A stretch of 39,202 nt of DNA from a virus. Below the pieces are notes generated by a model, which saw only the letters and a program-made list of their open reading frames with translations, ran no database searches and was not told the origin of the DNA. Position numbers and translations under genes: made by a program. Of the stretch, positions 9,522 through 36,601 are shown piece after piece. How positions within the stretch are numbered: the first letter of the stretch is position 1; every line of letters begins with the position of its first letter. The DNA lies in the IMG/VR virus record IMGVR_UViG_3300042445_001094, positions 1 to 39,202 of that record; one strand, 5' to 3'.

Positions 9522-9751
9522 AGTGCCTCCGTGATAATTGCGGACATGTGCCTGACCTTACGCTCTGAGGCTCGGAGGTCGCCGATATGGACGCACTCGT
9601 GTATGAGCGTGTCCATGCGCTCCCTTTCCGACCGGTGTTTCTTGTCGATAACGATTTTAAATAACTTTGCTCCGACATGGTATAGTTGCCCATCGTCTTT
9701 GTATTTCTTTAGGTCTGCTTCAACTATCTTGAACTTCTTTTTTGGTTTCAT
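9497..9751 (-). CDS. Mini HExxH metallopeptidase-like protein, 84 aa
   Basis: This small basic protein contains TLIHECVHIGDL, an HExxH zinc-binding motif, followed by an SERKV segment whose Glu could be the third ligand, and a C-terminal ALWRQGYRR. I recognise this 'IHExxH ... LW-x-x-GYR' pattern as a recurrent short phage protein of unknown role. It is much smaller than known secreted peptidases. I start at the ATG at 9749-9751, since the open frame further upstream is Cys/Pro-rich and lies within the lipoprotein gene, which this gene overlaps by 32 bases. Its place in the lysis-like cluster suggests murein or envelope protein processing, but this is inference. Confidence 0.6.
   Translation of the reverse strand: MKPKKKFKIVEADLKKYKDDGQLYHVGAKLFKIVIDKKHRSERERMDTLIHECVHIGDLRASERKVRHMSAIITEALWRQGYRR
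9526..9530 (-). promoter_or_regulatory. GGAGG ribosome binding site for HNH-like gene
   Basis: GGAGG lies four bases from a GTG start. It decides the start of this gene and is unlike most genes in the window, which lack such a site. Confidence 0.55.
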
Positions 9752-10433
9752 CTTCGTTGACGTTGTCGCGCACCTTATCGTAGGCCAACCACAGCAACAG
9801 GCCTGCAAGGACGGCTCCGGCGGAGCCAGCAATCCAAGCAAACCATGGACTCTCTATGACGTATGGAACCGCACCCGCAAACGCCCCAGCCAGGAGTAGC
9901 GGGGCGCCTTTTTTAACGCTAGCAAAGGCCATGGCGACACCGCCCAGGACGACTAAAGCCGCACCGGTGATGGTCCAAATCTTGCGATCAGACTCCTTCT
10001 CAATGCGAACCATGTCTTCCTTCAGCTTTACGTTCTCGCTCTTGAGGGCTTGGATTTCGATTGCGTTTTGCTTGGCCAGAACCTCGGCCTTCTCCCATTC
10101 GGAAGTCAGTTTGGACAGGAACTTGCGGGCATACTCCGTCTGATCGATGTAGGCCTTTTCATCGGCAGCAGCAGCCCGAGCCAGCGCAAAGGCCTTGTCG
10201 CCTTCGCTCGCCGGCGGTAAATAGGCCTTGGCTAACTTAGCCTCGGACCTAACGACCGCAGGTTTTTCGGCGTTGACCTCGATGGCAACCAGGGCACCGG
10301 CTACGCGGCCGTCTATCTTGTCCTGATCCTTTGCTATGTTGTCCAGGGCGTCCCCGCCCGCAGATGGGGTCGGGTCCACAGGGGGCGTGGTAGCGCAACC
10401 GACCAACAGCAGGATGGGAGCCCAAAGTTTCAC
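9720..10433 (-). CDS. Lipoprotein with coiled coil and C-terminal membrane helices (spanin-like)
   Basis: This 237-aa protein begins with a short lipoprotein signal ending in LLVGC (lipobox, Cys13), followed by a Thr/Pro-rich segment. A long charged helical region at ~95-140 (SEWEKAEVLAKQNAIEIQALKSENVKLKE) looks like a coiled coil. Near the C-terminus are two or three hydrophobic helices from ~150 to ~225, and the end is charged. A lipidated N-terminus plus a C-terminal membrane anchor is the plan of unimolecular spanins, which bridge outer and inner membrane to finish lysis, though classical u-spanins are shorter with one anchor. The GTG start at 10431-10433 overlaps the stop of the 45-aa gene. 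A structural or adhesion role is the alternative. Confidence 0.55.
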   Translation of the reverse strand: MKLWAPILLLVGCATTPPVDPTPSAGGDALDNIAKDQDKIDGRVAGALVAIEVNAEKPAVVRSEAKLAKAYLPPASEGDKAFALARAAAADEKAYIDQTEYARKFLSKLTSEWEKAEVLAKQNAIEIQALKSENVKLKEDMVRIEKESDRKIWTITGAALVVLGGVAMAFASVKKGAPLLLAGAFAGAVPYVIESPWFAWIAGSAGAVLAGLLLWLAYDKVRDNVNEDETKKEVQDS

Positions 10434-10585: not shown

Positions 10586-13500
10586 TTACTTTGGCTTGAA
10601 GTCGTCCGGGGTCAAGGCGCCCTTTGTCTTGTCCGGAACCATTTTGCCCGTTACTTGCGGGAAATTGGTGGCTTGCACGGCAACAGCCCCAAGAACTGGG
10701 CTTACGGCTGATGCGCCCGCAACTAAAGCGCCCTTTGCGATTGGAACGGTTGCCTTTGCCAAACTTCTCTTTGAGTTAGACATGTCCTTGCCTTCGACGA
10801 CGGACTCTATTGCCGAGACTACCGATCGGCCTAGATTGACGACTGACTGGCCGGTAGGACCACCTGGGGCTTGCTCGCGCTTGAGGGTCTTCATGGCTGC
10901 TTCAAACTTAGGGCCTAAAAGACCGGCGTAGGATATGGCATTGAGCCACTTAAGGAACTCCGGGTCTTTCTTGCGCTTTTGCGAAGCTTCGGTTGGGTAA
11001 AGCAAGTCTTTGAGTTCCAGTAGTCCTCGATAAGCCAATATAGACAGAGCGCCTATAACGACAGGCCCTAACATTCTAAGGCGATCATAAAGGGAGTACC
11101 TTTTGCCCGGAGGGCTGAAGGTCACAGACCGCTTAATCGTGTCGTACAATCGGGTGTTTACTTCTGCGGCATAAGCGTAACTAAAGTTCATTAGTTGTAA
11201 GTAGGTCTTGCCAAGTTCGGTGTCCTGGAAGACCGGCTTGTGGGCTCGGTTGGTGCGGACGCTAGACTGCACGGAGAAGCGGATCATGGCTTCCTGGTGC
11301 AAAAGGGCCATTTCGTCCTTTGCCGTCATAGCGGCCATGCGCTCGTTGCTGTTCATCTTGGCCAATTCTTCGGACCAAGCAGCAAACTCGGCATGTTTGG
11401 ATGGGGGTATACCAAGTTCATTCAGCTGGTCGGTCGCCGACTGCTTGGCATTAAGGCCAATCTTTGCCGTCCAGTGTGAGCCGCTGACCATCTCGGATAT
11501 GCGAAGGATATAAGAGTATCCGATTGCATGCGAGGCTTGCTGTTTGGCCACCTCGGAGGCCTCCATTAGATTGGCCTTGTAGATGCGGTTGGTTAGCCAG
11601 CGGAAGCGTGGGTCCGCGTTGTCGGCGTCCATGTCGATCGAGTGCGTGGTCATCCATGCGTCCTCGAATGAGTTGTGGATGCTTCCAATCTCCTGGCCGT
11701 ATTGAGTCCAGAACGTGTCGCCCATCTTTCTCTGCAGGGACGGAGAGAACGCTGCCAACTCACGCAGGAAGCGACCCCAGGTTTCAGCATAGGCTCGAAG
11801 CGTCGTCAAGGTGGCCCCAACTGGTCCGCCACCGGCTCTCATGCCCATTGTGATTGGCTCAACTAGGTTGTTGATGAAGCCCTTGCCCATGGCAGAAGCA
11901 GCAGTAAACAGCGTTATGGTATCGACGTAGCTTTGTGATGCCTTCCCTAGACTTCTAATTTCAACACCGGCAGCCTTCTTTACGAGATCCATCGTTTCCT
12001 CGATAATAGGGTATGGCACACCATCTTTCTCCATGTCCTTGGCGTATCCAGACCACTTCTTGCCGTCATGGCCAAAGCGCCTTACGACTTCGGTTCTCTT
12101 GGCCGCAGAGGATATGTACCTGGATACTACGCGGAACGGGTCATTGACCTGCCACTTGCGCATAATGGCCTGAGACTCTTTTCCGAACTTACGCTTTAGT
12201 AATGGGCTTTCGTCCATGCTCTTTCTGTCGCCAAATATGGAGTCAAAGCTCTCTGCAGCGCCACCACGGACGTGCATGTTGTAGAGTTCCTTGGCCTTTT
12301 CTTCGGCTATTTCGGCAAGGCTGTCCTTGACGGACTCTGGATCGACCGCAAGAAGGTCGTTAAGGGCATCTTCATCCATCTTTAGGAGCTTTGCCTTATC
12401 TGCGTCGCTTAACTTGCTGAGTTCTATTTCGTAAGCCTGTTTTGCGTCCTTGATAAATGCGGTTCGATTGTCGCCGATGCGAGGCGAGTCATAGACGGCA
12501 GGGAAGTAATCTTCAATGGTGCCAAGCTTTTCGCCGGCTTCCGTACGGTACTGATGGAGTTCGGCCAGGAGGTTCTTCAGGCCGGCGGCAGCCGTACCCA
12601 GGGGGCCTCCAGTGATTGGGCGATACCCCGTAACCATGTCCGTAAGGGCTTGGTAGACCTCCTCGCGCTGCTGTCTAGCCGTTCCCTGGTCGCTGTCCTT
12701 AAAGCTAGACAACATGTCACGGAGCGGGTTCATAATCTTATTGAGGCGATTATGGTACTTCGTTCTGGCGGTCGATATGGCTGTTGGGAGGTCGCGCTCG
12801 AACGCATTTGAGTCCGTTCCTGGACGAGCGTGAATGATATTGGCGATTAACTGTAGCGCCTTGCTGAACCCATAACGCTTTGCGTTCTGGTGTGCCTTTG
12901 CCGATATGCCCGAGAAGTATCGAAGGGTAAGAATATCCAGGGCGGTTCTTGCTGCCGTCTGGCCCTTACGAGGGGCGCTAAACAGATCAGGGTCTTCAGA
13001 CTGCTCCGCAGAAGCGTCACGGACGGAATTCAGCGTGGTCGGATTTTCGTCCTCTGGGTCAATGTTTTCGTCGGGCTTAGGTAGGGTGTCCTGTACCTTT
13101 GTTTCGGCAGCAGGATCGGTCATCTTGGTCGGCGGAGCCTTGCGCTGATACTCAGTTATTCGGCTTACGCCCTTTGCGTCTCTTGGCTTGATGCCGCGTC
13201 TCTTGGCTTCCTCTGGCGTGACACCCAAGTTTGGCGCAAGTCTGGTAAACATCTCCCATTCAAATTCCTTAAAGGTTGGGTCTTTCTTGGCCTGCTCGAA
13301 TTCCTTTTCGGATATCGTGTCCTTGCCGGCGAAGCGGTCCTTGCCTTCGTCGCCAAATCCGAACTCTCGCTGGGAGTCGTCACGCTGGCTTTGGAATATG
13401 TTGCTGGACTCGGTGTTTACGTCGTTTCCTGCAAATGCAGCCTTTATCTTGCGCGGATCGGCAAGAATATAGGAGTCTTGTCCGCCCCTCTTTCCGCCCT

Positions 13501-16500
13501 TAGCGGTGCGTAGGTCGGAATCGCTATACTTTATGGCATCTACGCCGTACTTTTTGAAAAGAGAATGTATGGAAGGGTGGATGAATATCTGCCATACGCT
13601 TGTTTGGAACCTGTTAAGTTCATCATCACGAGCTTCGTCAAACGCTTGCGTAAGCTCTTCCCTTAGTTCAGTTAGATCCAAGTTCTTGCCCTGGTTTATG
13701 CGTTCAACCTCGCTGATTATCTTGGCGATAAACTCGTCCTCACGCTTTACTATGTACTCGTCTGCGGTCAATCCATCTGGGTCGGCCTTGCGCATCTTAT
13801 CTATTACCGACCGAGAGTCTATGGAGTGGCCTATCTTGCTGATATCGACGATGTTCTTGGCGTTAATATACACCTGTACAACAGCGCCTGTAGTTCCTGC
13901 CGATGGAAGCGACTTGTTGTGGTCCTCATGTGCGTACTGCGCGGCGTAGTCAGGGTCAGCTGCTACATGGAAAAGGCCATCTTCGCTCATGTTTGCATCA
14001 AGTGTTTCGTACGCACCACTTTGACCTCGATAAAGGGCGTGCTTGACGGACGAGTCCTTCACGAACGTCCTTATCTGCTCCGCTCGCTCAGGGCTCATCT
14101 TGTTACGGCCGAGTATATTTACAACAAACGTGCTTCCGTCGCCCTTGCGCACCATGGCTTCGCCGACTGGATAAACGGCCTCAGACTGATCGGTTTCAGG
14201 AGAGACGACAGGCTCAGCTTTCAGACTTCGATCACCCTGGCTCATCTGGGTCTGGTCAGAGCCGAGCCCGCCCATGTTTGTGGAGCCTTCTTGTTCTGGG
14301 TTGTAGCGACCTTCGGCAAAGTTCTTGAGTATCTTGGCGGCTATGTCCTTGCCGAATAACTGACGGAAGGTGACCTTGATGGTTTCCCATAGGCCAGCCA
14401 ACTTTTCCTTCCAATTCTTGGAGCGACCGAGATAGACCGGATCGCTGTTAAGTTGGCGCATAACGGTTTCCTTGAATTCTTCAGCAAAGTACTCGTCAGG
14501 GGTAGTAAGGCGGTAGGTTTCGTCCGTAAGGCGCAAGCGATACATCGTCGAACCCTTCGGGAAACCCTCCTTCTTGATTTCTTCGGGGGTAAGCTTGATC
14601 AGCAGGCGCACCTGAGCAAAGCTGTCCAAGTTGGCGTTTGTGACCTGTTGCGGGGTGAAACGACGACGAGCCCAGTCTTTGCGGTCGGTCGCGCTTAGGA
14701 GCGTATCCAGGCCTTTGTTCTTCTTAAGGAAATCGACGCGCTTTTCGCGCATTTCCTTGAGCACCGCTTGGCGGTCGGCTTCAGGCAGGAAGCGCGTGAT
14801 GTGGTGGGCTATTTCGTGAGCAGCAGTTTCCTCGAACCGACCGGAAAGCATGGCATCGTGGAATATGGTAATGATGCGGCTAATGGTCTTGTACTGGCCT
14901 TGGGCGCCTTCTGGACCACTGCGGATGTTCATCTTGACGCCCTCAAAGAACTGGGCGCCAATCTTGTTCATGATGCGAGTGATGCCCTCGATCTGTTTTG
15001 GGGTTATTCCACCCCGTAGGCGAAGTTCGTCGGTGACTCGGGAGACTATGCCAGCGTAGCCCTTTCGGCCTTCTGGGTCGCCGGCACGGTTCTCGGCGTT
15101 CTGCTTCTTGCGGCGGTCGAGTTCGTCGGCCTTGCGGGCGTCAGCGTCTGGATCGCGCTGGGAAGAACGTGTTTCCTCAGTCCAATTTGAAATATCCTTT
15201 ATGGATTTACTTGTTTTTGCTTCCTTATCCCTGAAGGCATCACGCAGTGGCATGTTGTCCTTGTACAGCTGAGCGAGCTCCTTTATCAACGAGTCAAGTT
15301 CCTTCCTTCTGATTGATGCCTTGAGCGTGTCTCCGGATTTTGTAGCATCATCTAGCATGTCCTTCATGTCGGATATCTTTCGGTCAAGCTCTCTTGATTT
15401 TTTGCCTGCCTCAAACGTCGGACTTTGCATGTCCCTTGTTGCCTGAATTGCCATAGCTTCCATGGCGCGTGACATGGATTTATATCCATCACGACCACCG
15501 CCATAAATGATTTGATTGCCGTCCTTATCGTAGGCAAAAAACAGCTTTCCGTCTGATATTATCTGACCACCATCGCGGTGATTCCATACTTTTTGATCCG
15601 ATTCTGGGCGGTCGCGCTGGGACGCAAAATTTGTTTCTCCGTATACGGCAAAGCGTCGGTATGAAGTTCCGGACGAGTCAACGACGTCTGCAAAATCAAC
15701 ACCAGATTTAAATCCACCGGTCGCGGATGAGAACCTGCTAAGGTTTTCGGTTATTTCTTTAGCATCAACTTCTTGAACCCCGTCGCCGATATAGCCAATC
15801 ATCTGGGTGGCATTTGTGCGCTCTATTGCGACAATAAGGTTACTCATGGCTCCGGGCTGCCTTAGTTTCTTCATTTGGTCCATGGTCATGTATACGACAC
15901 CGACCGGAACGGATTTAACGTCCATGAGTAGTATTCCCGTTTTTCCTTCAAGGAATGACTTTGATGCGTCTGAAGCCTGTTCCTGGCTAGCTATCGGCGC
16001 GAATGAAAGCGCGCCTCGATTGGTGAACGTGCGTTCGGTTATTTTGATCCTGAACTTTGGCTGCTTGTACGTTACTTTCCTGTTATCGTGCTCCCTTCCT
16101 GCTGGACTTACATAGGAATACCTTTCATCAGTAACTGCCGCCAGGCCTTTGTATTCAATTCCAGACCCTTGCAGAAACTCGGACAGTGCCTTGCTCATTT
16201 GCTTATCTGCCCTGGAAAGCTTGGAAACGCTGGAGGGATGATTGTGAACTGCCCAAATCTTTGCGGCGCCCTGGACGCCAAGGGCCTGACCTGCGAGAAG
16301 CGCAGGATACACACCAGCGGATGATATGCCTCCTATCGAGTGTCTTCCGATATGTATGATGTTGTCGTTCTTGTCCAAGACGACGACACCCATGTTTTCC
16401 TGTGCGTTCTTAGCAAACCATGCCGAAACGGCAACGGCCAGATCATTAGCCGTTCTGACTTTTTCGACGCCGCTCATTATGGTCTGCGTGACGGCCTGCT

Positions 16501-19500
16501 CGACTACGTTGGATATACGTCCATTAATTTCTACCGAGTGGATTGTGTCTATGGCCGGAGTAGATTCTGTTTCAACCTGGGATTGATTAGATGCTATCTT
16601 TCGAGCGTCCTTTAACATCTGCTTATTGCTGGGTATCTTTTTTGGCTGGGCGCCATTGTCATCTTCGACATCCCGGCGAGAGAATGGATTGTCACCCGTA
16701 TCGACGTCCTCGTTCGGGGTGTAGAGGCGCTTCACGCCGTACTCGGCAGGCATGTCAACCTGGGCGGCTACGCCGCCGACGCCACCTTTTGGAGTTAGCA
16801 TTTCGCCCTTGGCTGCCCTGGCTATAAGGTCTATCAGGACGTCCGTATTGGCGTTGGTCGGGTCAACCTGTGTCCAGCCTCGTTCGGCAAGGGCCTGGGC
16901 TAAGTCACTAAGCATGCCGTCTGCGGCGTCCTTGAGGTTCTTCTTGTATTCCAGATCAGTTTCAGCGCGCTTGGCGTCAATCTTGCCGTAGCGCTTGGGG
17001 TGTCTGGCTAACTTTATGAAACGACCTTTGCCTATTTGCTGGGCTAGGCCGAGCAGTTCCTGGTGGCCGAAAACCGCTGGAAGGGTGGGTATTGCTATCC
17101 TTCCGTTGCTTGATTTGGTAATGCCTTCAATGTCGGCAATCAGGTCGCCCTTAACTGCTTCTCCTTCTTCACCAAACTCAGCAGCAGCGCGCTCCTTATT
17201 GTCCTCTCTGGTGGCCAATTCACGCCCAACTGCGTCATACAAGTCCTCCCCGACTTCATCGGCCGTAAACTTGGCCATAAACTCATTTAGCGCATCGTCC
17301 GATATGATATCAAAATCAATCTCGTCCGTTTGCATGCCATCAAGAAGGGTGCTTTCAGCCTCAAACTGGGCGATCAGTTTTTCGGCCGCATCGCGTTTGG
17401 CGTTCCAGCCCTCTCCCTTGCTCATGTTTTTGATGATGCTCGAGAGTTGCTTTCGGGCCTCGGTGACGTCGGCAGGCTCATTGTCCGTAAATGGCTTCAG
17501 GATGCTTTCCGCATCGGTTTCAGCCGTTCCGGCCTGGGACTCATAGGATTGAATGGCGTCCATGATCTCCTTGACTTCGTATGACTGAACGAACATATCT
17601 GCGCTGCTTCGGCTTGCCCTGAAAACGTTTTCACTGACAAGTTTTTTGAGCTTCTTGCGCTGGGTTTCAAGGCGCCGGTTGTCGCCTGGCTTGGACTTAA
17701 GGGCCTCCTTGACCGCCTTCATCTTGTCTAAAACAAACTGGCGGGCCTTGCGGGTGTCCTCATTCGGGGACTCATTAACGAGTTCCTGCTGGTCGATGAT
17801 TCCACGATCCAGACCCTTGATGCCTTGAATGTCGGTGCGCGGGGCTTCGGCCTGGGCTGCCGGCTTCGCTGGCTTCAGGCTATCTTCGTATTTGGCGATG
17901 GTGTCCCGGAGCGTTTGCTGCTGTTGCGGGCTCTTGCCGGACTTTTCGAGCTTGGCAAGCTGGGTGCGGGCCTGGGCTACATAGGCGGGCTCCGTGCCGG
18001 CGGTGGTCAGTTCGGCCGTCGTGTCCGCCGGCTTGGCCTGAGTTTCGGTGGCGCTTCCGCCCGTCAGGTTGAACGCGTCAGAGGTGTCAATCAGCTCGCC
18101 CTGGCCGGCGCCTAGTTGGCGGGGCTTCTCGGCCGTTTGGTCAGTTTGCTTTGGCTTGTTTGCGCCAAGGGCTTCAAGGAACTCTGCGGTGCGCGATTGG
18201 AACTCCGATAAGTCCAAATCAATATTCATTTTATAGACCAATTTCAAAGCATCTTCAAATGAACCCTCGTCGTATTGGTTTACGGCGTTTGAAAGCTCTT
18301 GGTCTTTTTTTAGTGATTCGGCCACCTCTTCAAGCATGCCAAACACTTGATCTGGTCTGTATGAATCTTTGACCTTCCATTCATCTTCATTTTCATAGAA
18401 GACTCCGCCGTCCTGGAATTTGTCGTTCAAGCTAAAGCCAACAGTGCCATTCTTTTTCATGGCATCATGTTCTTCTTCGTCTATATCGCTCCTTCTGCCT
18501 TCATCAACGGATAGCACCTTGCTGAAGGCATCAAGAATAACCTTGTCGGTTTTCTTGTCCATTATGATCAACCAGGGTGGGTCTTCCCCGCCAAGTTTTT
18601 CTTTTTCATCATCATTCAAATCATTGACGCTCGCGTAGTGTTCCTCTGAAATCATCTGAATCCTGGAACCAACAGCTCTGGCAAGGCCAAGCGCTTGTTC
18701 TTCGGACAGGGACTTGGCACCTTCTTTTATGAACGAAATCTTTATGGCAGAGTTGCCCCCGTCTGCGCTGAACCTGTCCCTCGAGAAAGGACGATCCTGG
18801 CCAAACGATATGATCGCAGTTCCGATTTTAGTGCCGTCTTCGCCGGTTACTGATGCGGTTACATTAAATGGCTCTATTTCACTATCCAACAGCAGGTGAA
18901 TGGCCTCACTTGCCTTATCTTTTTGCTCATAAAGGCTATCAGGAGCGTCTTCGGTTTGATCTATGATATCCTCAATTCTCTGAACCTCGGCCTCTAATGC
19001 ATCCAACTTTTTCTTTGTTTCCTCGTTTCTCTTGAATTGCGGGCCGTCATATACGTCCATGTCGAACACAAGTTTAGCGCCTTGTCCTATGTTGAAAACA
19101 TGATCTTTGCTTGATTGCTCTGCGAGCATTTCTTCGTCCTTGCGCTGGGCTTCCGTGCCGATGGATTCAATCATTGATGCCATTTCAATCTTTGTCCTGA
19201 GGATATTTTCTAACACTTTTTTAAGCTCATTAATATCAGCCTTAACGTCTTTGCTTTTGCCGCCAAGCACACTGTCTATGATGGCCCTAGCCCTTTCATT
19301 CATTAACTTAAACTCTTTGAGCTTTTCCCTTCCCTCTTTAGATGCAGATAGTACATCCATGTAGTTTTCATCAATGGAGTCCTGGTCGCTGTATGGCTCA
19401 ACTGGAAGCGCCCCCTCAATGTCATCCTTAACGTCTTTAAAGTCCGTTTGACCGGGGTATAAGAACGGAATCTTGCTGCCTTTTTTGTATCCACTTTCAC

Positions 19501-22500
19501 CGGGCCTGAATATGTTGTTGTCGCTTAAAAGCTTCTTTCCGTAAGACTCATTTAGTTCCTTCAATCTATCTGAGAGCTTTTGGTAGGTTTTGCTGCTAGG
19601 GTTGCCATTCTTTTTTAGCTTTTCGGCAATATCAGATGCCTCCTTAGATGGGTTCTTTATTTTCCCCAGAAGATCATCGTATTGCATTTCGGAAACAAGC
19701 TCATCAACCGTAAGGGTTGAAAGTGGAATCTCTCTTTCCGACTGGGCGCGCTTTACGCCATCAGCAAGCAAGTCAAAACGCATTTCAGTTGGTTTCTCCC
19801 CGTAGCTTACATAAGCGTCTTCATAATCTACAAACTTTACGCCGTACTTTTTCTCGAAGGCGGCAGCAATATCGGCGTCAGATGATTTTGGATCTATTCC
19901 AAGTATTCCAAATATAAGGGCTTTTCTCCCTGACCCATTTGCCAATTTCATAATTTCATCCTCTCCGAATTTAAAAACAATGGTCCCGGCGTCATCACGT
20001 TTGGAATCTTTGGCGTTTTCCTTTTTGTAATTCATGACCTGGGAATAAAGAGCGTCAACCATCTTGACGGCACGCTCTTTTCCGTACTTCAGCACCAATT
20101 CGTCATCATGCATGTTATCAATCTCTTGTCCTACCATCCGCCCAACATGGTCTCTATTTCCAATATACGACCAAGCCCCAATATTCCCAACATTTGTTCC
20201 TACGGCAAATTTTCCATTTTCGTCAAATACGACAAACGTAGCGCCATAGTCGTAGCCACTAGTTTCGGATCCGGCAGAAGGAATGATTGAGAAGGTCATT
20301 CCGGTATTGCCAAGCGGGGTCATCTTCTTGTCCCACTCCATCGGCTTTTTAGATGCTTTCCATTCTTTCATTGATAGCTGGACCTGGGATCCCTCATAGG
20401 CAGATCCAAATGCCGCCTTAAGCGCGCTGGTCATGGAGCGCTTGTCGGCGTAATCGTTCTCCTTGGCTATCTTGTTCAGAATTGGGTGTATCGTATCGTT
20501 CGGATTGAAGTCATCGTCGCCTTCATCGTCTAGGCCTTCTTCAATGATTGTCTTTAGCTCGGCCTTGTCTTCGTTACTGATCTTGACGGATGTTTGTTTG
20601 TCGGGCTGGGCCGGTGCCTTTGGCTTGGCCGTTGGCTTTGCCGCAGGCGTCGTGGCTGGCGTAGCTGCGGCCGGCGTGGCAGGTTGAGCCGGCTTTGCAG
20701 TGGGTGCAGTCGCTGGCTGAACAGGCTTAGCCGTCGAGGCTGGCGTGGCGGTAGCTTGTGCTCGAGGTGCAACCGGTGCAGGAGGCTGGCGAACGGCATC
20801 CCGGTTGAAGCCAGGGGCGTATTGCTCGGCTGCAATACTCTTAAGCGTCGAGCGTATTTCACCCTTATCCAATTCGGAAACGCCCGAGCCTGGCTGGGAC
20901 GCGACATACAGGGCAATCTTGCCTGCGTTGACTCGCTCATCCCAGGTAATGCCCTGCATCATGCGCTTGACTGCGTTGCCAAGGAGATCCTTTGAGAACT
21001 TCTCGATGAAGTCTTTAAGTCCTTGCTGGCTGTAGGCCTCTGGCTTGTTTGAACCAGTACGCAGGAAGTTGGCCATCTGTTCGTAGAACTGCTTTCGGTA
21101 AGCCATTTCAATGGATTGCGATGGCATGTACTTGGTGTCCTTGTCAGCGTAGGAGTGCTCCATTTGCTTGCTGACCATGCGAGCAAGCCCTTCGGCCGTA
21201 GAAACGGCTAGATTTTGATCCTTGGCTGATAACTGCGTAAGTATCTCCCCGGTGGAGTTAACAACGCGCTCAACAAATACTGGGTCGGCGGGCTTTAAGC
21301 CGCCGGTACGGCGGTGTGCTTCCGCGTTAAGGCCGACGACGCTATTGGCAGCCTGTGCTGGCTCCATGGCAGCGTGGGCGGTAAGCAAGCCCTGTTGGTC
21401 AAGGGTTTCGTGCGCAGGGATGTGCTGTGGGACGAAGTTGACTTGACCCTGGCCGTCAGCAGCAACGGTTACGGCGGGAGCCGTGCCTGGATTGGTGCTC
21501 GGAGCGGCAGGGGTTGCCGTGGTTGGCGCTGCAGTTGCTGGAGCGGCTACCGGGGTGGCCGTTGCTGGAGTCGAAGCCGGTGCAGTCGTTGCTCCTGGGG
21601 CTGGTGTCTGAGCGCTGGCTCGGGCCGCCGATAGGGGCTTTGGTCGTCCGTCATGATAGTGCGTCGCTGCGTATTTATTTCTCCATTCCGTGTAGGCTTT
21701 GCTCCACTCCTCTCTGTCTTCAAGGGTTGCTTCATTTCCAGGGAATACGGGCGACGGTTCAACGTTTTCTACGACGGCTTGTGCAGGCGCAATAGGATTG
21801 CCGTTAAGGGCAGCCTTAAAGGCTGCAGCGGCTGCAAGCGTATTGGGGTGATTTGGGCCAAACGTGTTGAACGCGTCGCGCAAGACTTCGTACTGGAACG
21901 CTGACGGATGGTTAGGCGGAGGTACCAGATACTCGTCTTCTACGCTCGAGGCTTGCACTGGAACTCCAGCGGTCGGAGCAGGGGTTACTGGTGCTGCAGT
22001 TGGGGTGACAGGGACTGCAGGGGTGACGGGGACTGCAGGAGCGGCGGGCGCCACACCTGGAAGGGGAGGTGGAGTTGCCTGAGAGCTTCTAGCTGCTGCC
22101 ACAAGTGCTGCCTGCGCTGCTGCTTCGGCTGGAGTTTGTGCGGTGGCCGCGTTATATGCCTTCTTGCCGCCGGCCTGGATTGAATTCATCAGGCCCGAGG
22201 TAATAAGACCAGCCGATCCACCAAGTAATCCAGACGTGACTGGCTGAACCCAGTCAAACGACTTGTTGTTGCCAGCTAATATAGATGCCAACTGAGAGGT
22301 GACGCTTACGGTTGCTTCTTCTGCAGCTTCCTGTGCACCTTCGACCAAATACGGGACGCCTTTCTTGATAAGGAATTTGCCGACTGGGTGTTTAACTGCG
22401 GTCTTTATTTCCTTCATGCCCGGTATGAGCGAGAACACGCCAGTAGTTGCGCCTTCGGCTACGCCAGCAGCAGTGCCCGTCTTTACGGCAAGATCAAAGG

Positions 22501-23410
22501 CATTGGAGAACTCGTCTGGATTGGCGTTGGCGTATGCACGAACGGCATCCTCGTCCTTGGGGTCTAATTTCTTGGACCTTAGGTATTCCTGGAAGTTCTG
22601 GTCTATATTGCTTAGCGTAGCATCTCGGCCAGCCATAGCGCCTTGGGCTGCCGCCCCAGTGCCAGTAATTGCCTTGCTTACGCCTGGGCTTGGTGTTCGT
22701 CCGCCTCGTGCAGCAAGCGCTCTTGCTCCAAGTTCTAGTGCGCTTAAGCCAAGGGACTTAAGTGTAGGCAAAGAGCTTTCGGCAGCTGCTTGGGTGCCTA
22801 TGCTTAGGGCATTGAGGCCGTAGTCACCAAAGAATGTCTTTGCGGCATTGTTTAGGTCGCCCGCTTCATTGTACTTCTGGAATTGCTTGTAAGTAGGGGT
22901 TACAGACTCATTTCTACTAAGCGCTGCCTCTAATTCGTCCTTTTCCGTTTTGGCTGCCTTTAATTTATCTTCGTTTTCAGCAAGAAAACCGGTTTGAAAT
23001 TGCTTTTCAGTGTTAAAATTAGCAAGCGCCTCTGATTCAGTTAAACCCTTGCTGGCCTGTTCGGGCGAAAGGCCAGGGAATTTTTCATCCAACAACTTCT
23101 TGAGTCGAACGTTTCTTTGAACCTGTCTGTTAAAGTCGTTGCTGGCTTTTGCGGCATCGATGCCATACCAAGAGCGACCGATAGCGTTGCCAATGGACGA
23201 CAAATATCCAGTCGTTTCAGCATTGGGATCAAGCGACTGGCCCGCCTTGCGCTGACCGCCGCCTATGCCCTTGAGGCCAGTGGGATCAAACTGGTCAAAG
23301 AAGTTTCCGCCTTGCGTGGCGTCCGGTTGGCCAACCGGCTTGATTTCTTGATTACCGACTTCCGGCTTCTTGGCTGGCTCGTCGAATTGGTCGAAATAAT
23401 TTTTGGTCAT
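10586..23410 (-). CDS. Giant polyvalent ejection protein (4,274 aa), gp15/16-like position
   Basis: This gene takes up a third of the window. Its position after the gp13/gp14-like genes is that of the T7 internal core proteins, which enter the host with the DNA. Domains seen in order: two FDQFD repeats near the N-terminus; Ala/Gly-rich helices to ~420; Pro/Ala/Thr linkers (~440-490, 595-645, 880-940); unrecognised charged regions to ~2240; a JAMM/RadC-like domain (E2338, H2389, H2391, S2399, D2402); an HExxH metallopeptidase (HEIAHH 2865-2870, likely third ligand E2973); an ADP-ribosyltransferase-like domain (YRG 3127-3129, FHVAADPDYAAQY from 3147, ending DSYILADPRKIKAAF); and a helical C-terminal region resembling polyvalent-protein domain LPD38, with hydrophobic helices near 4107-4127 and 4224-4250. 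S-Q-R-D-like motifs mark the domain borders. It starts in an ATGA overlap with the gene upstream. No transglycosylase motif is seen. Confidence 0.85.
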   Translation of the reverse strand: MTKNYFDQFDEPAKKPEVGNQEIKPVGQPDATQGGNFFDQFDPTGLKGIGGGQRKAGQSLDPNAETTGYLSSIGNAIGRSWYGIDAAKASNDFNRQVQRNVRLKKLLDEKFPGLSPEQASKGLTESEALANFNTEKQFQTGFLAENEDKLKAAKTEKDELEAALSRNESVTPTYKQFQKYNEAGDLNNAAKTFFGDYGLNALSIGTQAAAESSLPTLKSLGLSALELGARALAARGGRTPSPGVSKAITGTGAAAQGAMAGRDATLSNIDQNFQEYLRSKKLDPKDEDAVRAYANANPDEFSNAFDLAVKTGTAAGVAEGATTGVFSLIPGMKEIKTAVKHPVGKFLIKKGVPYLVEGAQEAAEEATVSVTSQLASILAGNNKSFDWVQPVTSGLLGGSAGLITSGLMNSIQAGGKKAYNAATAQTPAEAAAQAALVAAARSSQATPPPLPGVAPAAPAVPVTPAVPVTPTAAPVTPAPTAGVPVQASSVEDEYLVPPPNHPSAFQYEVLRDAFNTFGPNHPNTLAAAAAFKAALNGNPIAPAQAVVENVEPSPVFPGNEATLEDREEWSKAYTEWRNKYAATHYHDGRPKPLSAARASAQTPAPGATTAPASTPATATPVAAPATAAPTTATPAAPSTNPGTAPAVTVAADGQGQVNFVPQHIPAHETLDQQGLLTAHAAMEPAQAANSVVGLNAEAHRRTGGLKPADPVFVERVVNSTGEILTQLSAKDQNLAVSTAEGLARMVSKQMEHSYADKDTKYMPSQSIEMAYRKQFYEQMANFLRTGSNKPEAYSQQGLKDFIEKFSKDLLGNAVKRMMQGITWDERVNAGKIALYVASQPGSGVSELDKGEIRSTLKSIAAEQYAPGFNRDAVRQPPAPVAPRAQATATPASTAKPVQPATAPTAKPAQPATPAAATPATTPAAKPTAKPKAPAQPDKQTSVKISNEDKAELKTIIEEGLDDEGDDDFNPNDTIHPILNKIAKENDYADKRSMTSALKAAFGSAYEGSQVQLSMKEWKASKKPMEWDKKMTPLGNTGMTFSIIPSAGSETSGYDYGATFVVFDENGKFAVGTNVGNIGAWSYIGNRDHVGRMVGQEIDNMHDDELVLKYGKERAVKMVDALYSQVMNYKKENAKDSKRDDAGTIVFKFGEDEIMKLANGSGRKALIFGILGIDPKSSDADIAAAFEKKYGVKFVDYEDAYVSYGEKPTEMRFDLLADGVKRAQSEREIPLSTLTVDELVSEMQYDDLLGKIKNPSKEASDIAEKLKKNGNPSSKTYQKLSDRLKELNESYGKKLLSDNNIFRPGESGYKKGSKIPFLYPGQTDFKDVKDDIEGALPVEPYSDQDSIDENYMDVLSASKEGREKLKEFKLMNERARAIIDSVLGGKSKDVKADINELKKVLENILRTKIEMASMIESIGTEAQRKDEEMLAEQSSKDHVFNIGQGAKLVFDMDVYDGPQFKRNEETKKKLDALEAEVQRIEDIIDQTEDAPDSLYEQKDKASEAIHLLLDSEIEPFNVTASVTGEDGTKIGTAIISFGQDRPFSRDRFSADGGNSAIKISFIKEGAKSLSEEQALGLARAVGSRIQMISEEHYASVNDLNDDEKEKLGGEDPPWLIIMDKKTDKVILDAFSKVLSVDEGRRSDIDEEEHDAMKKNGTVGFSLNDKFQDGGVFYENEDEWKVKDSYRPDQVFGMLEEVAESLKKDQELSNAVNQYDEGSFEDALKLVYKMNIDLDLSEFQSRTAEFLEALGANKPKQTDQTAEKPRQLGAGQGELIDTSDAFNLTGGSATETQAKPADTTAELTTAGTEPAYVAQARTQLAKLEKSGKSPQQQQTLRDTIAKYEDSLKPAKPAAQAEAPRTDIQGIKGLDRGIIDQQELVNESPNEDTRKARQFVLDKMKAVKEALKSKPGDNRRLETQRKKLKKLVSENVFRASRSSADMFVQSYEVKEIMDAIQSYESQAGTAETDAESILKPFTDNEPADVTEARKQLSSIIKNMSKGEGWNAKRDAAEKLIAQFEAESTLLDGMQTDEIDFDIISDDALNEFMAKFTADEVGEDLYDAVGRELATREDNKERAAAEFGEEGEAVKGDLIADIEGITKSSNGRIAIPTLPAVFGHQELLGLAQQIGKGRFIKLARHPKRYGKIDAKRAETDLEYKKNLKDAADGMLSDLAQALAERGWTQVDPTNANTDVLIDLIARAAKGEMLTPKGGVGGVAAQVDMPAEYGVKRLYTPNEDVDTGDNPFSRRDVEDDNGAQPKKIPSNKQMLKDARKIASNQSQVETESTPAIDTIHSVEINGRISNVVEQAVTQTIMSGVEKVRTANDLAVAVSAWFAKNAQENMGVVVLDKNDNIIHIGRHSIGGISSAGVYPALLAGQALGVQGAAKIWAVHNHPSSVSKLSRADKQMSKALSEFLQGSGIEYKGLAAVTDERYSYVSPAGREHDNRKVTYKQPKFRIKITERTFTNRGALSFAPIASQEQASDASKSFLEGKTGILLMDVKSVPVGVVYMTMDQMKKLRQPGAMSNLIVAIERTNATQMIGYIGDGVQEVDAKEITENLSRFSSATGGFKSGVDFADVVDSSGTSYRRFAVYGETNFASQRDRPESDQKVWNHRDGGQIISDGKLFFAYDKDGNQIIYGGGRDGYKSMSRAMEAMAIQATRDMQSPTFEAGKKSRELDRKISDMKDMLDDATKSGDTLKASIRRKELDSLIKELAQLYKDNMPLRDAFRDKEAKTSKSIKDISNWTEETRSSQRDPDADARKADELDRRKKQNAENRAGDPEGRKGYAGIVSRVTDELRLRGGITPKQIEGITRIMNKIGAQFFEGVKMNIRSGPEGAQGQYKTISRIITIFHDAMLSGRFEETAAHEIAHHITRFLPEADRQAVLKEMREKRVDFLKKNKGLDTLLSATDRKDWARRRFTPQQVTNANLDSFAQVRLLIKLTPEEIKKEGFPKGSTMYRLRLTDETYRLTTPDEYFAEEFKETVMRQLNSDPVYLGRSKNWKEKLAGLWETIKVTFRQLFGKDIAAKILKNFAEGRYNPEQEGSTNMGGLGSDQTQMSQGDRSLKAEPVVSPETDQSEAVYPVGEAMVRKGDGSTFVVNILGRNKMSPERAEQIRTFVKDSSVKHALYRGQSGAYETLDANMSEDGLFHVAADPDYAAQYAHEDHNKSLPSAGTTGAVVQVYINAKNIVDISKIGHSIDSRSVIDKMRKADPDGLTADEYIVKREDEFIAKIISEVERINQGKNLDLTELREELTQAFDEARDDELNRFQTSVWQIFIHPSIHSLFKKYGVDAIKYSDSDLRTAKGGKRGGQDSYILADPRKIKAAFAGNDVNTESSNIFQSQRDDSQREFGFGDEGKDRFAGKDTISEKEFEQAKKDPTFKEFEWEMFTRLAPNLGVTPEEAKRRGIKPRDAKGVSRITEYQRKAPPTKMTDPAAETKVQDTLPKPDENIDPEDENPTTLNSVRDASAEQSEDPDLFSAPRKGQTAARTALDILTLRYFSGISAKAHQNAKRYGFSKALQLIANIIHARPGTDSNAFERDLPTAISTARTKYHNRLNKIMNPLRDMLSSFKDSDQGTARQQREEVYQALTDMVTGYRPITGGPLGTAAAGLKNLLAELHQYRTEAGEKLGTIEDYFPAVYDSPRIGDNRTAFIKDAKQAYEIELSKLSDADKAKLLKMDEDALNDLLAVDPESVKDSLAEIAEEKAKELYNMHVRGGAAESFDSIFGDRKSMDESPLLKRKFGKESQAIMRKWQVNDPFRVVSRYISSAAKRTEVVRRFGHDGKKWSGYAKDMEKDGVPYPIIEETMDLVKKAAGVEIRSLGKASQSYVDTITLFTAASAMGKGFINNLVEPITMGMRAGGGPVGATLTTLRAYAETWGRFLRELAAFSPSLQRKMGDTFWTQYGQEIGSIHNSFEDAWMTTHSIDMDADNADPRFRWLTNRIYKANLMEASEVAKQQASHAIGYSYILRISEMVSGSHWTAKIGLNAKQSATDQLNELGIPPSKHAEFAAWSEELAKMNSNERMAAMTAKDEMALLHQEAMIRFSVQSSVRTNRAHKPVFQDTELGKTYLQLMNFSYAYAAEVNTRLYDTIKRSVTFSPPGKRYSLYDRLRMLGPVVIGALSILAYRGLLELKDLLYPTEASQKRKKDPEFLKWLNAISYAGLLGPKFEAAMKTLKREQAPGGPTGQSVVNLGRSVVSAIESVVEGKDMSNSKRSLAKATVPIAKGALVAGASAVSPVLGAVAVQATNFPQVTGKMVPDKTKGALTPDDFKPK

Positions 23411-24792
23411 GGATTACGGCCCAGCACAGCTTTAGCCGCGCCAGGACCGTACTTAGCATCGAACTCTTTTGCAAGAGCAGGATTCGCAGCCAAAGCCTTT
23501 TTAGCACCTGCACTTGGAACTGGCCGAGCGGGCTGTGCTTCAGTGACCTGAGGAGGCATTGGGCCACGCATGGCTCCCCTTGCGGCATCATCCGGGGTTA
23601 CCGGAGGCCCTACCATGGGCGCCTGGGTCGGAGCAGAAGGAGGCGGACCAAATACTTTTTCTCTCATGCCCTTAACATCCAACGGCTTGCCTCCAGATTG
23701 AATAGTTACATCGCCTCCCCAAGATGCATCTTCCGACGTCAACCCTTCTTGGATTATGTACTTTTGTACGGCTATATGCGCAGGATCATTAGGAAACGCC
23801 GCTATGGCAGCCGATGCTACAATTTGCGCGTCCTGTGGATTTAAACTTTCTCCCGCGTACCCGAGTGCGTTGGTTACGGCAGCAAGGGCGTCCAGTGCCC
23901 GCTTGTCATTTCGTGCCATATCCAGCGAATTGCTGGATCCGCTACTACCGCCAGCAGCAGCCTTGATTCTGGCTACGGCCGCCGTGCCTTCGTTTCGGAT
24001 GCGGGCAACCGCTGTTGGGGTTGGATTATCTGCCGTGAACGGCAGGCCAGAAGTTCCTTTACCTTGCTGACCTGGCTGCAGGCCTATTGCGCCCATAGCT
24101 GCCTTGTTTTGAGGCGCAAGTATGCCAGCCAAATCAACCCCCTTTGGGGCTTGTGATGCGCCGATAAACGCGCCAGCAGGCAGGTTCATGCGGGCGTCTT
24201 CGGGCGCAACAAAATCAACACCGCCAGAAGCAGGGAGGATTGGGCGACCTAATTCGTCGTGTTGAACCAACGTTTGACCTGGGTTCAGTACGGTAGGAAG
24301 CAATCGTTTGTTCGCGGCCGTTGCGTTTGCGCCGCCTGCCGCCAGACCAACCCCAACATCGGTTGGGTTTGCGTTCAGGTTGTGGCCGGCGATCATCGCT
24401 GGCATGTCCTTTGGGCCCGTCTTTCCTGCTACAGCCGTGCCGAGTGCCGTCAATCTGGGTAGATTCTTGGGATTGACGATCATGCCCTTGCCGTCAGGAG
24501 ATGGCATCCAATTGGACGGGTCGCTCAGGAACTCCTTTTGCTGTTCAGCGCTAAGGTTCGAGAAGGATACTCCGGCCGTTTCCGCAACAGCCTTGCCCTT
24601 GTTTGCTTCGTGTAGGCCTGTTCGGGCAACAAGCTCCGCAACAGTTGCGGGAATGACCTTGTTGGTTCGGGCCTCATTGTAAGCCCGCTCGGCCTGCAGG
24701 TTGGCGCCCTTGGCAGCCTGTTCAGGATCGAGCCCGAACAAGCCTTTGGACTTGTTTAGAAGTGGATCAACCCATGAGTAGTCTTGTGCCAT
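23407..24792 (-). CDS. Ejection-module protein, 461 aa, Ala/Pro/Gly-rich
   Basis: I do not recognise an enzymatic domain. An N-terminal part (DYSWVDPLLNKSKGLFGL) leads into helical segments, then long Ala/Gly/Pro-rich, probably flexible stretches. The C-terminus has ALAKEFDAKYGPGAAKAVLG, a motif I recognise from the ends of phage internal virion or structural proteins located before large polyvalent genes. Its place between the gp14-like proteins and the giant gene suggests a T7 gp15-like role in the internal core or DNA channel. The ATG at 24790-24792 lies five bases after the upstream stop, without a Shine-Dalgarno sequence, and the 3' end overlaps the giant gene by four bases (ATGA). Confidence 0.6.
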   Translation of the reverse strand: MAQDYSWVDPLLNKSKGLFGLDPEQAAKGANLQAERAYNEARTNKVIPATVAELVARTGLHEANKGKAVAETAGVSFSNLSAEQQKEFLSDPSNWMPSPDGKGMIVNPKNLPRLTALGTAVAGKTGPKDMPAMIAGHNLNANPTDVGVGLAAGGANATAANKRLLPTVLNPGQTLVQHDELGRPILPASGGVDFVAPEDARMNLPAGAFIGASQAPKGVDLAGILAPQNKAAMGAIGLQPGQQGKGTSGLPFTADNPTPTAVARIRNEGTAAVARIKAAAGGSSGSSNSLDMARNDKRALDALAAVTNALGYAGESLNPQDAQIVASAAIAAFPNDPAHIAVQKYIIQEGLTSEDASWGGDVTIQSGGKPLDVKGMREKVFGPPPSAPTQAPMVGPPVTPDDAARGAMRGPMPPQVTEAQPARPVPSAGAKKALAANPALAKEFDAKYGPGAAKAVLGRNP

Positions 24793-24797
24793 TGTAG

Positions 24798-25418
24798 TTA
24801 TTTTATGTTCCAGCCAGTTCCTTTGGGCTGCATAGCGCCGTACATATTGAGCATGGAGCCGACGCCGACGCCAAGTTTGCCTGCGGCCGCTAGGCCTGAG
24901 CCAGCCTGACCGGCAGCGTCTAATTCAGATTGGTTGGCATTAAGAGATCCGCCCATTCGGTTTGCGATCAGACCCTGGCGGCGAGCAAAGTCCAGGTTCA
25001 TGAGGGACGAGCCTATTTGGGCGTCGCCAAATCCTGCGGCAAGCGCTCGACTGGCGTTCTCTACGGATGCGGTTGAGCCTGCGGCTGCGCCGCGAACGGC
25101 AGAGTCGCTGGAAACGACCCTTGGGGTTCCGCCTACAGAGGCGATAGGGGCGACGGACGGGGCGGAGGCCACGTTTGCTTCGCCGGCCGCAATTCGGCCT
25201 TCAGTAGAAGCCTTCATGGCCTTTTCGACTTCATCTACGCCCTGCTTCTTGAGTGCTTGATTAAAGGTGGCGTCCGACTCCTGCTGCATCCCGAGTTGGC
25301 GCTTTCGTTCTGCGTCGCGCGCTTGCATAATGGCCTGCTGTGACTTCTTAGCAGCTTGTGCCTGGGCGTAAGTGCCTGCGGCCGATATAGCCATTCCGAT
25401 TACCATTGGGTTGCACAT
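24798..25418 (-). CDS. Internal virion protein, T7 gp14-like
   Basis: This 206-aa protein begins MCNPMVIGMAISAAGTYAQAQ, close to the N-terminus of T7 gp14 (Met-Cys, an Ala/Ile hydrophobic helix, then a long helical Gln/Ala/Arg-rich stretch). The remainder is Ala/Ser/Gly-rich, ending in a hydrophobic segment (LGVGVGSMLNMYGAM). gp14 proteins are ejected first and form a pore in the outer membrane during genome entry. The start is in a TAATG overlap with the gene upstream, and ACCCAA lies eight bases before the ATG. It is the second of two tandem MC-starting proteins of nearly equal length. Confidence 0.72.
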   Translation of the reverse strand: MCNPMVIGMAISAAGTYAQAQAAKKSQQAIMQARDAERKRQLGMQQESDATFNQALKKQGVDEVEKAMKASTEGRIAAGEANVASAPSVAPIASVGGTPRVVSSDSAVRGAAAGSTASVENASRALAAGFGDAQIGSSLMNLDFARRQGLIANRMGGSLNANQSELDAAGQAGSGLAAAGKLGVGVGSMLNMYGAMQPKGTGWNIK

Positions 25419-26035
25419 TAGGTTCTTTGGGTAATCTCCTTGCCTGCACCAGAGCCACGAATGGCACTGAAGTATGGTTGAGCACCTTGTGATTTACTGT
25501 CGTAGTAACCAGCGGTGCGGGCGTCAGAAACAAGGCCAGCAGTGTTGGCAAACATGTTGCCAAGCATGGAGTAAGATTGCTGGTTGGCCAAATTGTTGGC
25601 TGCGTTTGCAGACCTTGCGGCTGCAGTATTTGCGTCGCCGGTGGCATTGAGTTGTCCAATAAGTGAGCTCTTGTTTTCTTCCATTCCTTGGCGCTGCTGA
25701 TTGGCCATGTTTGAGGCCTTTTCCGCTATATCGTATCGAGCGTTCTTCATCTGCTCCTGCAGTATGCCTTCGCTCTTCGATCGTTCGCTGGAGTCCGTAA
25801 GACCCTTTCGAGCAAGCGAGTACGCAAGGTTTTCATTGGCCTGTTGGTACTGCTTAACGGCCTGAGGGTTCATTGATTTCATGAACTCCTCTTTGCGCTT
25901 ATTGAAGAAATTGTCGTTAAACCCGGAAAAGGTCTGATTTATCCTGCCCATGCCGGACTGGACGCGCTCCTGCCTTGCGTTTTCATCTGCCCTTGCTTGG
26001 GCCGCGTAAGCACCTGAGTCTCCTCCTCCGCACAT
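25418..26035 (-). CDS. Internal virion/ejection protein, 205 aa
   Basis: The protein starts MCGGGDSGAYAAQARADE and continues with helical, charged and Gln/Asn-rich sequence (RINQTFSGFNDNFFNKRKEEF; LAYSLARKGLTDSSERSK). I recognise the MCGGGDSGA opening and the following arrangement from podovirus internal or structural proteins next to gp14. It lacks the long hydrophobic helix of gp14 near the start, so it is not a plain duplicate of the next gene, although the sizes match. It probably forms part of the ejection apparatus in the capsid. The ATG at 26033-26035 has ACCCAA seven bases upstream. Confidence 0.6.
   Translation of the reverse strand: MCGGGDSGAYAAQARADENARQERVQSGMGRINQTFSGFNDNFFNKRKEEFMKSMNPQAVKQYQQANENLAYSLARKGLTDSSERSKSEGILQEQMKNARYDIAEKASNMANQQRQGMEENKSSLIGQLNATGDANTAAARSANAANNLANQQSYSMLGNMFANTAGLVSDARTAGYYDSKSQGAQPYFSAIRGSGAGKEITQRT
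25427..25432 (-). promoter_or_regulatory. ACCCAA start-proximal element (gp14-like gene)
   Basis: ACCCAA is eight bases from the ATG and lies inside the last codons of the preceding gene. The start itself is in a TAATG junction. Confidence 0.35.
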
Positions 26036-26053: not shown

Positions 26054-26530
26054 TTAATTTATGTTTGTTTTGTCATTCGTCCAGCTATAAACGTGGAAAG
26101 TATCTCCATTCTTTCCGAGCATTTTGAGGGATGCCTCTCTGGTTGCCCCCAGATACTCGAGCCACCGGTGGGCGGTGTCATGACCCTCCATGGATCTGCA
26201 CTCAGCCCTAAGCCAATCTGTGCCCTTTATGGACGGTATTACGATCCGCTTGATGAACTTTGTAACTTCCGACGAAACCTCGTCCCATCGGTCGGTTGCG
26301 AACATCCAAACCTGCCACACCCCTGGCCAACAGGCTATAGCGCCAAAAGCAGCAACAGGTATTCCGTCATTTGCCATGGAAATCCACCCGAAGCTACCCT
26401 TTGCCATGATGCAATCAACCAAATCCTCGGGATTGTCGTCCCATCTGGTAGCAAAGACCTCTTTTTTGTCAATTTCCCGCATGTTATCGGCAACATAAAG
26501 TAATCCAGCCTCGTTTAGTTCACGAAGCAT
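26054..26530 (-). CDS. T7 gp13-like protein with acetyltransferase-like fold (DUF2833-type)
   Basis: This 158-aa protein resembles the phage DUF2833/gp13 group, which has a GNAT-like fold: an N-terminal helix (NEAGLLYVADNMREIDKKEVFATRW), a central beta region (PVAAFGAIACWPGVWQVWMFATDRW) and a C-terminal part (DTAHRWLEYLGATREASLKMLGKNGDTFHVYSW) that looks like the last GNAT strand pair. T7 gp13 is needed for virion assembly but is not a known acetyltransferase, so I make no catalytic claim. It sits between nozzle and gp14-like genes as in T7. The start is in a TAATG overlap with the nozzle gene. Confidence 0.75.
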   Translation of the reverse strand: MLRELNEAGLLYVADNMREIDKKEVFATRWDDNPEDLVDCIMAKGSFGWISMANDGIPVAAFGAIACWPGVWQVWMFATDRWDEVSSEVTKFIKRIVIPSIKGTDWLRAECRSMEGHDTAHRWLEYLGATREASLKMLGKNGDTFHVYSWTNDKTNIN

Positions 26531-36598: not shown

Positions 36599-36601
36599 AA
36601 A

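Follow-up and report, generated by a model that had tools for sequence, protein, structure and literature searches.

The window analysed here, a 'linear' IMG/VR virus record of 39,202 bases, contains on its minus strand a single giant gene (10586..23410), whose reading frame runs uninterrupted from the ATG at position 23410 to the stop at 10586 over 4,274 codons, with no internal stop. The encoded protein of 4,274 aa has a predicted mass of about 468 kDa. Homologues of 4,528, 4,209 and 4,050 aa are found in three related contigs (termed G1, G2 and G4, respectively), and the length of the giant is therefore no assembly accident. A short contig, G3, holds the C-terminal part (1,234 codons), and further short pieces occur in other contigs.

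The giant is preceded on the same strand by a PHROG 308 internal virion protein, a 205-aa gene, a T7_gp14-like gene and a 461-aa gene, and the gene order resembles that of T7 gp13, gp14, gp15 and gp16. The 158-aa protein in the gp13 position (26054..26530) matches PHROG 308 with E 6.4e-15 and no Pfam family. The 205-aa gene (25418..26035) is placed in the internal-protein cluster by its position, with no convincing match in Pfam or PHROGs. The gp14-like internal virion protein of 206 aa (24798..25418) was recognized by PF24072 (E 2.7e-5) at 24.6 bits, under the curated cut-off of 27 bits. The 461-aa gene (23407..24792) is assigned to the gp15 position by its order and length, as in several podoviruses; it has no family match in Pfam or PHROGs. 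G1 has a gene of the same 461 aa in this position; in G4 it measures 833 aa, and in G2 at most 783 aa. Those of G4 and G2, which have no Pfam match, may also carry inserted cargo. Beside the giant lie two holin-like genes, one of LydA type (8818-9159; PF16083, E 3e-4) and one for a 237-aa protein whose end is Holin-X-like (9720-10433; PF07332, E 0.002), both matches being below the cut-offs.

The family scan for other genes of the window covered minus-strand frames, which include terminase, portal, capsid, SU10-type adaptor, tail fibre and replication genes. The window has a portal-terminase system (terminase, PHROG 38, E 1.4e-109; portal, PHROG 12082, E 1e-13). In blastn, G1 is 91-98% identical to the window in nine of ten blocks and 82% in the tenth, and about 8.2 kb of G1 (33.0-41.2 kb) has no counterpart in the window. 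G1 comprises 47,736 bases with a 161-bp self-overlap at its ends (one mismatch), leaving 47,575 bp of unique sequence, and the more distant G2 has an exact end self-overlap of 123 bases, leaving 48,179. The window is thus probably a fragment rather than a whole genome. The giant occupies 32.7% of the window, and the homologous giants occupy 28.6% of G1 and 26.2% of G2; on the scale of the G1 genome of 47,575 bp, the share of the window's giant would be about 27% rather than a third.

The preliminary description, made from this DNA sequence, had proposed one 4,274-aa gene in the T7 gp15/16 position filling a third of a genome of about 39 kb. The intact frame bears out the gene, and the gene order, with PHROG 308 and the sub-threshold PF24072 match upstream, agrees with the position. 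The third holds for the window and falls to about 27% at the scale of G1, and the genome size has to be given up in view of the 47.6 kb of unique sequence in the near-identical G1.

The phage of the window is known here from its contig alone. A nucleotide search of window positions 1-25000 against phages gave no match, and neither did tblastn searches against phages with residues 1-1803 (E 1e-3) and 1804-3341 (E 0.01) of the giant. Genome contigs scanned with the C-terminal alignment produced 55 pattern matches, none of which was a relative, so that no prophage or host lead emerged. The tail fibre gene (36602-38677) has some collagen-like matches, with 44 PHROG families at E <= 0.01. Because blastn found no match in G1 for window positions 36380-38677, the tail fibre differs between these otherwise near-identical phages; its function is probably host recognition.

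Domains of the giant protein

The N-terminal region (residues 1-880; 20771..23410) has no Pfam match and is marked by a duplicated FDQFD motif and by Pro-rich stretches, which in the giant cover residues 422-513, 585-654 and 860-949. Two copies of an acidic-aromatic 8-mer (NYFDQFDE and NFFDQFDP) make up this duplication in the window and G1; both fall among the first 70 residues, those of the window at 4-11 and 36-43 (23282-23401). Comparable pairs occur in G4 (DDEFLVQP/DDDFLAVP), in Microcystis phage Mae-Yong1326-1 (TDPWAVVG/ADPWAVVN) and in Bacteroides phage BF1-TP2 (LGDFSNFE/IGDFSKFE), and in each of these cases, as in the window and G1, the duplication was reached in 0 of 200 shuffles. It is marginal in G2 (12 of 200 shuffles) and was not found in the giants of BcepIL02, Vibrio phage 252E42.2 and Ruegeria phage 45A6. 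By analogy, the 8-mer could possibly be a packaging tag; for P1 DarB, a part of PMC9024508 gives the first 30 residues as such a tag.

The N-terminal region is followed by a cargo slot, termed slot A (residues ~880-1741; 18188..20773), with no Pfam match, and by conserved segments within residues ~1742-2240 (16691..18187). A RadC-type JAB domain cassette comes next (residues ~2240-2600; 15611..16693). It matches Pfam PF04002 (E 4.8e-14) and PHROG 10276 (E 9.9e-11), and the JAMM motif HNHPSSVSKLSRAD (HNHP..S..D) at residue 2389 is complete in both the window and G1. A structural match to 2qlc (Z 11.2 over 120 residues, rmsd 2.8 A) rests on a model of low local confidence (pLDDT ~30-66). It comes from a poor model of 1,106 residues spanning the RadC to ART cassettes (mean pLDDT 43.1), which was used for the RadC cassette only. 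The giant contains a RadC domain, the catalysis of which is predicted. After the JAMM part, residues ~2485-2560 (15731-15958) have a similar order of strands and helices without the HxHP motif; inspection by eye of the sequence and of the low-confidence model suggests that this is perhaps a degenerate second JAB domain.

Between a cassette that has no equivalent in G1 according to the homologue alignment (residues ~2600-2750; 15161..15613) and slot C lies a putative zincin metallopeptidase (residues ~2750-3050; 14261..15163). HExxH occurs once in the giant, at residue 2865, where 0.043 instances are expected by composition. The motif (HEIAH, residues 2865-2869) is invariant in the five aligned rows of the window and four relatives. 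It is followed after 104-106 residues by PDEYFAE or PNEYFAE in the window (PDEYFAE at 2971), G1 and G4, and G2 keeps a conserved ExFAE downstream. The block has no Pfam match, and the best hit of a PDB profile search (E 0.067) was not meaningful. The conserved residues make a zincin metallopeptidase likely, with a putative activity.

The adjacent cassette (residues 3055-3342; 13385..14248) contains the motif order RG ... VAADPDYAAQYA ... VYINAKN ... SYILADPRKIKAA, which fits what we take to be the motif order of ART-PolyVal. Pfam profile searches did not match an ART in the window's giant, and a PDB profile search with the ART alignment gave nothing meaningful (best E 1.4). Profile and pairwise comparisons with the G4 cassette and with the ART-PolyVal of a Bacteroides phage yielded nothing significant; the best hint, at E 0.13, was a weak one and covered the 'SY...IKAA' end. 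As a query against phages, the ART cassette of G4 found no relative at E 1e-3. An ADP-ribosyltransferase is possible for this cassette, the motif order being its sole support.

The C-terminal module (residues 3478-4274; 10589..12979) is basic (pI ~9.4), is modelled as helical and has hydrophobic stretches at residues 4113 and 4227. Its model has a mean pLDDT of 47.8, with 70-84 in the best helices and 489 of the 797 residues under 50. Among 964 aligned PDB chains, the top four were phage core or ejectosome proteins, namely 8vb2_A (Z 12.3), 9jyy_I (T7, 12.1), 7eyb_I (T7, 10.4) and 9vvp_W (9.4), and the fifth was an unrelated protein with Z 5.5; Z scores under ~13 in helical folds may mean only a common arrangement. 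That all four best chains are of the expected kind and stand well above the rest would nevertheless be hard to get by chance. The stretch of T7 gp16 matched by fold is 511-860. An hhalign comparison with T7 gp16 reached a probability of only 0.6% and is insignificant alone; it places window residue 3825 on T7 residue 867, and the fold alignment ends with 3818 on 860, both with an offset of 2958. A PDB profile search with the C-terminal alignment gave no meaningful match (best E 0.074). In BFVD, 30 matches of the module reach E 0.001, the named ones including polyvalent-domain proteins, an 'internal virion protein D', a Pseudomonas core protein and the KPP25 structural protein. In passages of PMC8954989, gp16 homologues are described as having little sequence in common and a putative C-terminal transmembrane region, and T7 residues 511-860 fall in gp16-C, where missense changes let the whole genome enter without transcription. 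We predict with moderate confidence that the C-terminal ~800 residues have a gp16-like fold. The giant combines at least two unrelated activities, the RadC/JAB domain and the gp16-like module, the latter by a modest model. No RNA polymerase domain of the N4 virion type was matched in the giant (Pfam, E <= 1; PHROGs, E <= 0.1).

The preliminary description had also listed three enzyme-like domains (JAMM, HExxH and ADP-ribosyltransferase) and a helical C-terminal domain. The last is consistent with the module, which is modelled as helical with a gp16-like fold at modest confidence. Since RadC was matched, the HExxH residues are conserved and the ART tests were negative or weak, the three enzymes become one shown (JAMM, as RadC of PF04002), one likely (HExxH) and one possible, the ART being unconfirmed by profile or pairwise tests.

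Cassette exchange and a repeated junction motif

Comparison of the four long giants separates common from variable parts. The window, G1, G2 and G4 have in common the HExxH block (2757-3049 in window numbering), the C-terminal module (3484-4250, also present in G3) and segments near 1741-1850 and 1897-2220, the order of which is reversed in G2. The variable parts are slot A (~897-1740), slot B (~2245-2750) and slot C (~3050-3342). Compared in steps of 100 residues, the giants of the window and G1 reach 80-99% identity in residues 1-900, 87-97% in 1801-2200 and 92-100% in 2701-4274, as opposed to 19-55% in 901-1800 and 49-75% in 2201-2600. The RadC region differs by 25-51% per step, while the sequence on either side of it is near-identical in the two phages. 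G1 lacks any equivalent of residues 2601-2700, and its giant has extra blocks of 77, ~330 and 238 residues.

The slots differ in content. Slot A has a different sequence in G1, whereas it is 27% identical to that of the distant G2 over 677 columns (E 5e-50); part of the G1 slot A resembles G4 (49% over 105). Slot B is occupied by RadC in the window and in G1, and by a sub-threshold ART-PolyVal match in G4 (E 7.5e-5; 24 bits against a cut-off of 31.2). In slot C, the window, G1 and G4 have the ART-like block; at this place G2 and contig L031 have a second HExxH. Phages near-identical elsewhere in the giant thus carry different cargo. What is new here, as judged from the aligned sequences, is that near-identical phages differ by whole predicted cargo cassettes, and that a repeated short motif, described next, is placed at cassette or estimated domain boundaries.

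A short motif, S[RQ][RGF]D, occurs at five sites in the window's giant (residues 2244, 2597, 2750, 3057 and 3341), where 0.3-0.4 are expected by chance; five were reached in 0 of 500 and 0 of 300 composition shuffles, the mean of the 500 being 0.32. The motif was picked after looking, and the giants of the window and G1, in which it is also enriched (four sites), are close relatives and not independent. Three of the five sites adjoin breaks of homology in the alignment (2607, 2750 and 3054/3058), and the other two (2244 and 3341) sit at estimated domain ends. The cut points given in the preliminary description fall on the motif as well, and their choice may have depended on it. The window-only cassette 2600-2750 has the motif on each side, and G1, lacking the cassette, has one. 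The extra 238-residue block of G1 is preceded by MSRIE, which is not the strict motif, and followed by MSQGD.

The serine codons at the five sites are TCT, TCC, TCC, AGC and AGC, and the five motifs are therefore not all copies of one DNA repeat. Sites 2597 and 2750 are near-identical in DNA (TCC CAG CGC GAC/GAT), a pattern as compatible with a recombination scar as with a cleavage site. Enrichment is weaker in G4 (two sites, reached in 22 of 500 and 7 of 300 shuffles), and the strict motif is not enriched in G2 (1), Mae-Yong (0), KPP25 (0, partial), BcepIL02 (1) or the Vibrio (0), Ruegeria (1) and Bacteroides (0) phages. The motif is thus at most a feature of the window's lineage. With the looser pattern [FM]S[RQ], enrichment is seen in the Vibrio giant (5 against 1.15 expected) and in G4 (5 against 1.49), but hardly in the window's giant (4 against 1.76; 36 of 300 shuffles). 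The S[RQ][RGF]D sites are possibly processing sites or recombination scars, and both may hold.

A more specific idea, which we consider doubtful, is that the giant would be a self-cutting cargo train, whose own HExxH domain would cleave the S[RQ][RGF]D junctions of the second half and release singly the interchangeable enzymes that had been delivered as one chain, with near-identical phages swapping cargo at the same junctions. Sections of Iyer et al. (2017; PMC5512222) propose autoprocessing by the zincin-like domains of polyvalent proteins generally and refer to earlier work showing processing in the case of P1 DdrB. In our literature search, we recognized no paper as describing such S[RQ][RGF]D junctions.

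Known giant proteins and an interpretation of the locus

Comparable giants are known from other phages, and the size is ordinary for the kind. Genes of 4,667 aa (BcepIL02), 4,515 aa (JC1), 3,912 aa (Ruegeria 45A6), 3,764 aa (Parlo), 3,633 aa (Bacteroides BF1-TP2) and 3,066 aa (Vibrio 252E42.2) are on record, and the suggestion of an extreme size for a podovirus is not supported, since other podovirus lineages have genes of 3,066-4,667 aa in this place. A gene of 441-530 aa precedes the giant in Mae-Yong1326-1, BcepIL02, JC1, Vibrio 252E42.2, Ruegeria 45A6 and Bacteroides BF1-TP2.

The 'DarB-like' proteins BcepIL02 gp70 and JC1 gp69 resemble the giant in size and neighbours. In the parts of PMC9144972 that concern JC1, a 510-aa gene is followed by the gene of 4,515 aa, which makes up 22.1% of the genome and whose product, gp69, was identified in virions through 51 unique peptides in mass spectrometry. 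However, BcepIL02 gp70 has SLT, methylase-helicase, LPD3 and LPD38 domains instead of RadC and the C-terminal family of the window. LPD38 occurs in four of eight records, each of which is BcepIL02 or a phage retrieved for its relatedness to the BcepIL02 LPD38 region, and is absent from the window's giant, G4, G2, KPP25 and Mae-Yong.

The C-terminal module itself is ~20-22% identical over ~340 aa to a virion structural protein of Kochitakasuvirus (KPP25, phiR18) and to the 2,441-aa protein of Mae-Yong1326-1, a phage of similar gene order in which a 459-aa gene precedes the large one. These proteins are about half as long as the giant and carry other cargo, in Mae-Yong LPD1 and two HExxH motifs. 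A fragment of UniProt A0A6J7XFQ9, a 'RadC-like JAB domain containing protein' from an uncultured Caudovirales phage, is 43% identical to the C-terminal module, and another fragment matches the model containing RadC; the combination of RadC with this module seems already to have been deposited in that entry.

Compared with T7 gp16 (1,318 aa), the giant is alike in gene order, in fold by model comparison and in the hydrophobic stretches near the C terminus, but it is more than three times longer, has added cassettes, shows no significant sequence similarity and has no transglycosylase domain that was found. Phage-type polyvalent proteins, as characterized in parts of Iyer et al. (2017; PMC5512222), are alike in joining several unrelated activities in one polypeptide, in their portal-terminase phages, in a probable zincin and in predicted delivery with the DNA. 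Zincin-like metallopeptidases are the commonest domain of such proteins, and ARTs of the ART-PolyVal/Tox-ART-HYD2 kind are also common; neither is obligatory. The comparison section of that paper confines RadC to polyvalent proteins of conjugative elements, although its RadC section mentions prophages as well; in contrast to the comparison section, RadC occurs here in a phage ejection-type protein.

Our interpretation, with a probability of roughly 0.78, is that the giant belongs to the phage-type polyvalent proteins and has a T7 gp16-like ejection module as its base. The best explanation of the ~3,400 residues before the C-terminal module is an N-terminal region followed by exchangeable cassettes, including RadC/JAB, a putative zincin and a putative ART. 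This reading is favoured by the gp16-like fold, the gene order, the RadC domain, the similarity to the structural protein of the KPP25 group and the turnover of cassettes. Counted against it are the modest C-terminal model, the insignificant sequence match to gp16, the SLT domain not found in the giant (Pfam, E <= 1), the putative zincin and ART that have no profile match and the varying size of the gp15-position gene in G4 and G2.

The same size class and the similar gene neighbourhood would also suit a giant of the DarB/Bcep22 type, a virion protein serving mainly antirestriction through a methylase-helicase pair, with an N-terminal lytic transglycosylase. This is improbable: methylase, helicase, LPD3 and LPD38, like SLT, were not found by Pfam at E <= 1 in the window's giant, whereas the same library detects these domains in BcepIL02 gp70 (SLT, LPD3 and LPD38 over the cut-off, methylase and helicase just under it), and the C terminus of gp70 does not match the C-terminal profile of the window. 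Less improbable, though still unlikely, is a purely structural or pilot protein with long spacers, in which the enzyme-like cassettes would be inactive or vestigial. Much of the length indeed has no detectable domain, Pro-rich stretches are present and the RadC region diverges strongly between near-identical phages. Yet the JAMM residues are intact in the window and G1, HExxH and the downstream Glu are conserved, and whole cassettes are gained, lost and exchanged rather than decaying. An early non-virion protein, such as a polyprotein of DNA metabolism or defence evasion lying in the structural cluster by chance, might be read from the PHROG matching RadC, which is described as a DNA repair protein. 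We regard it as very improbable against the gp16-like C-terminal fold, the recurrence, across several lineages, of a 441-530-aa gene as its partner and the annotation of a similar C-terminal module as a virion structural protein.

As a polyvalent ejection protein, the giant would be made together with the gp13-, gp14- and gp15-like proteins, as the gene order suggests, and, by its position and by analogy with JC1, would be packed with them in the head. It would then be ejected ahead of or with the DNA, and the predicted fold points to the C-terminal module as a possible hub at the inner membrane and in the cytoplasm. The ~800 residues of this module would be the equivalent of the gp16 core that handles DNA. 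The cassettes would reach the cytoplasm and might target nucleic acids or proteins of the host ahead of phage gene expression. More speculatively, the embedded zincin may cut the chain at S[RQ]xD junctions.

The giant ties polyvalent proteins to ejection proteins of the gp16 type, the ejection module appearing as a constant chassis and the enzymes as changing cargo. Near-identical phages with different cargo are a natural experiment on the purpose of the cargo. Through the repeated junction motif, the autoprocessing proposed for polyvalent proteins becomes open to test, and the swapping of cargo at this short recurring motif among near-identical viruses likewise deserves testing.
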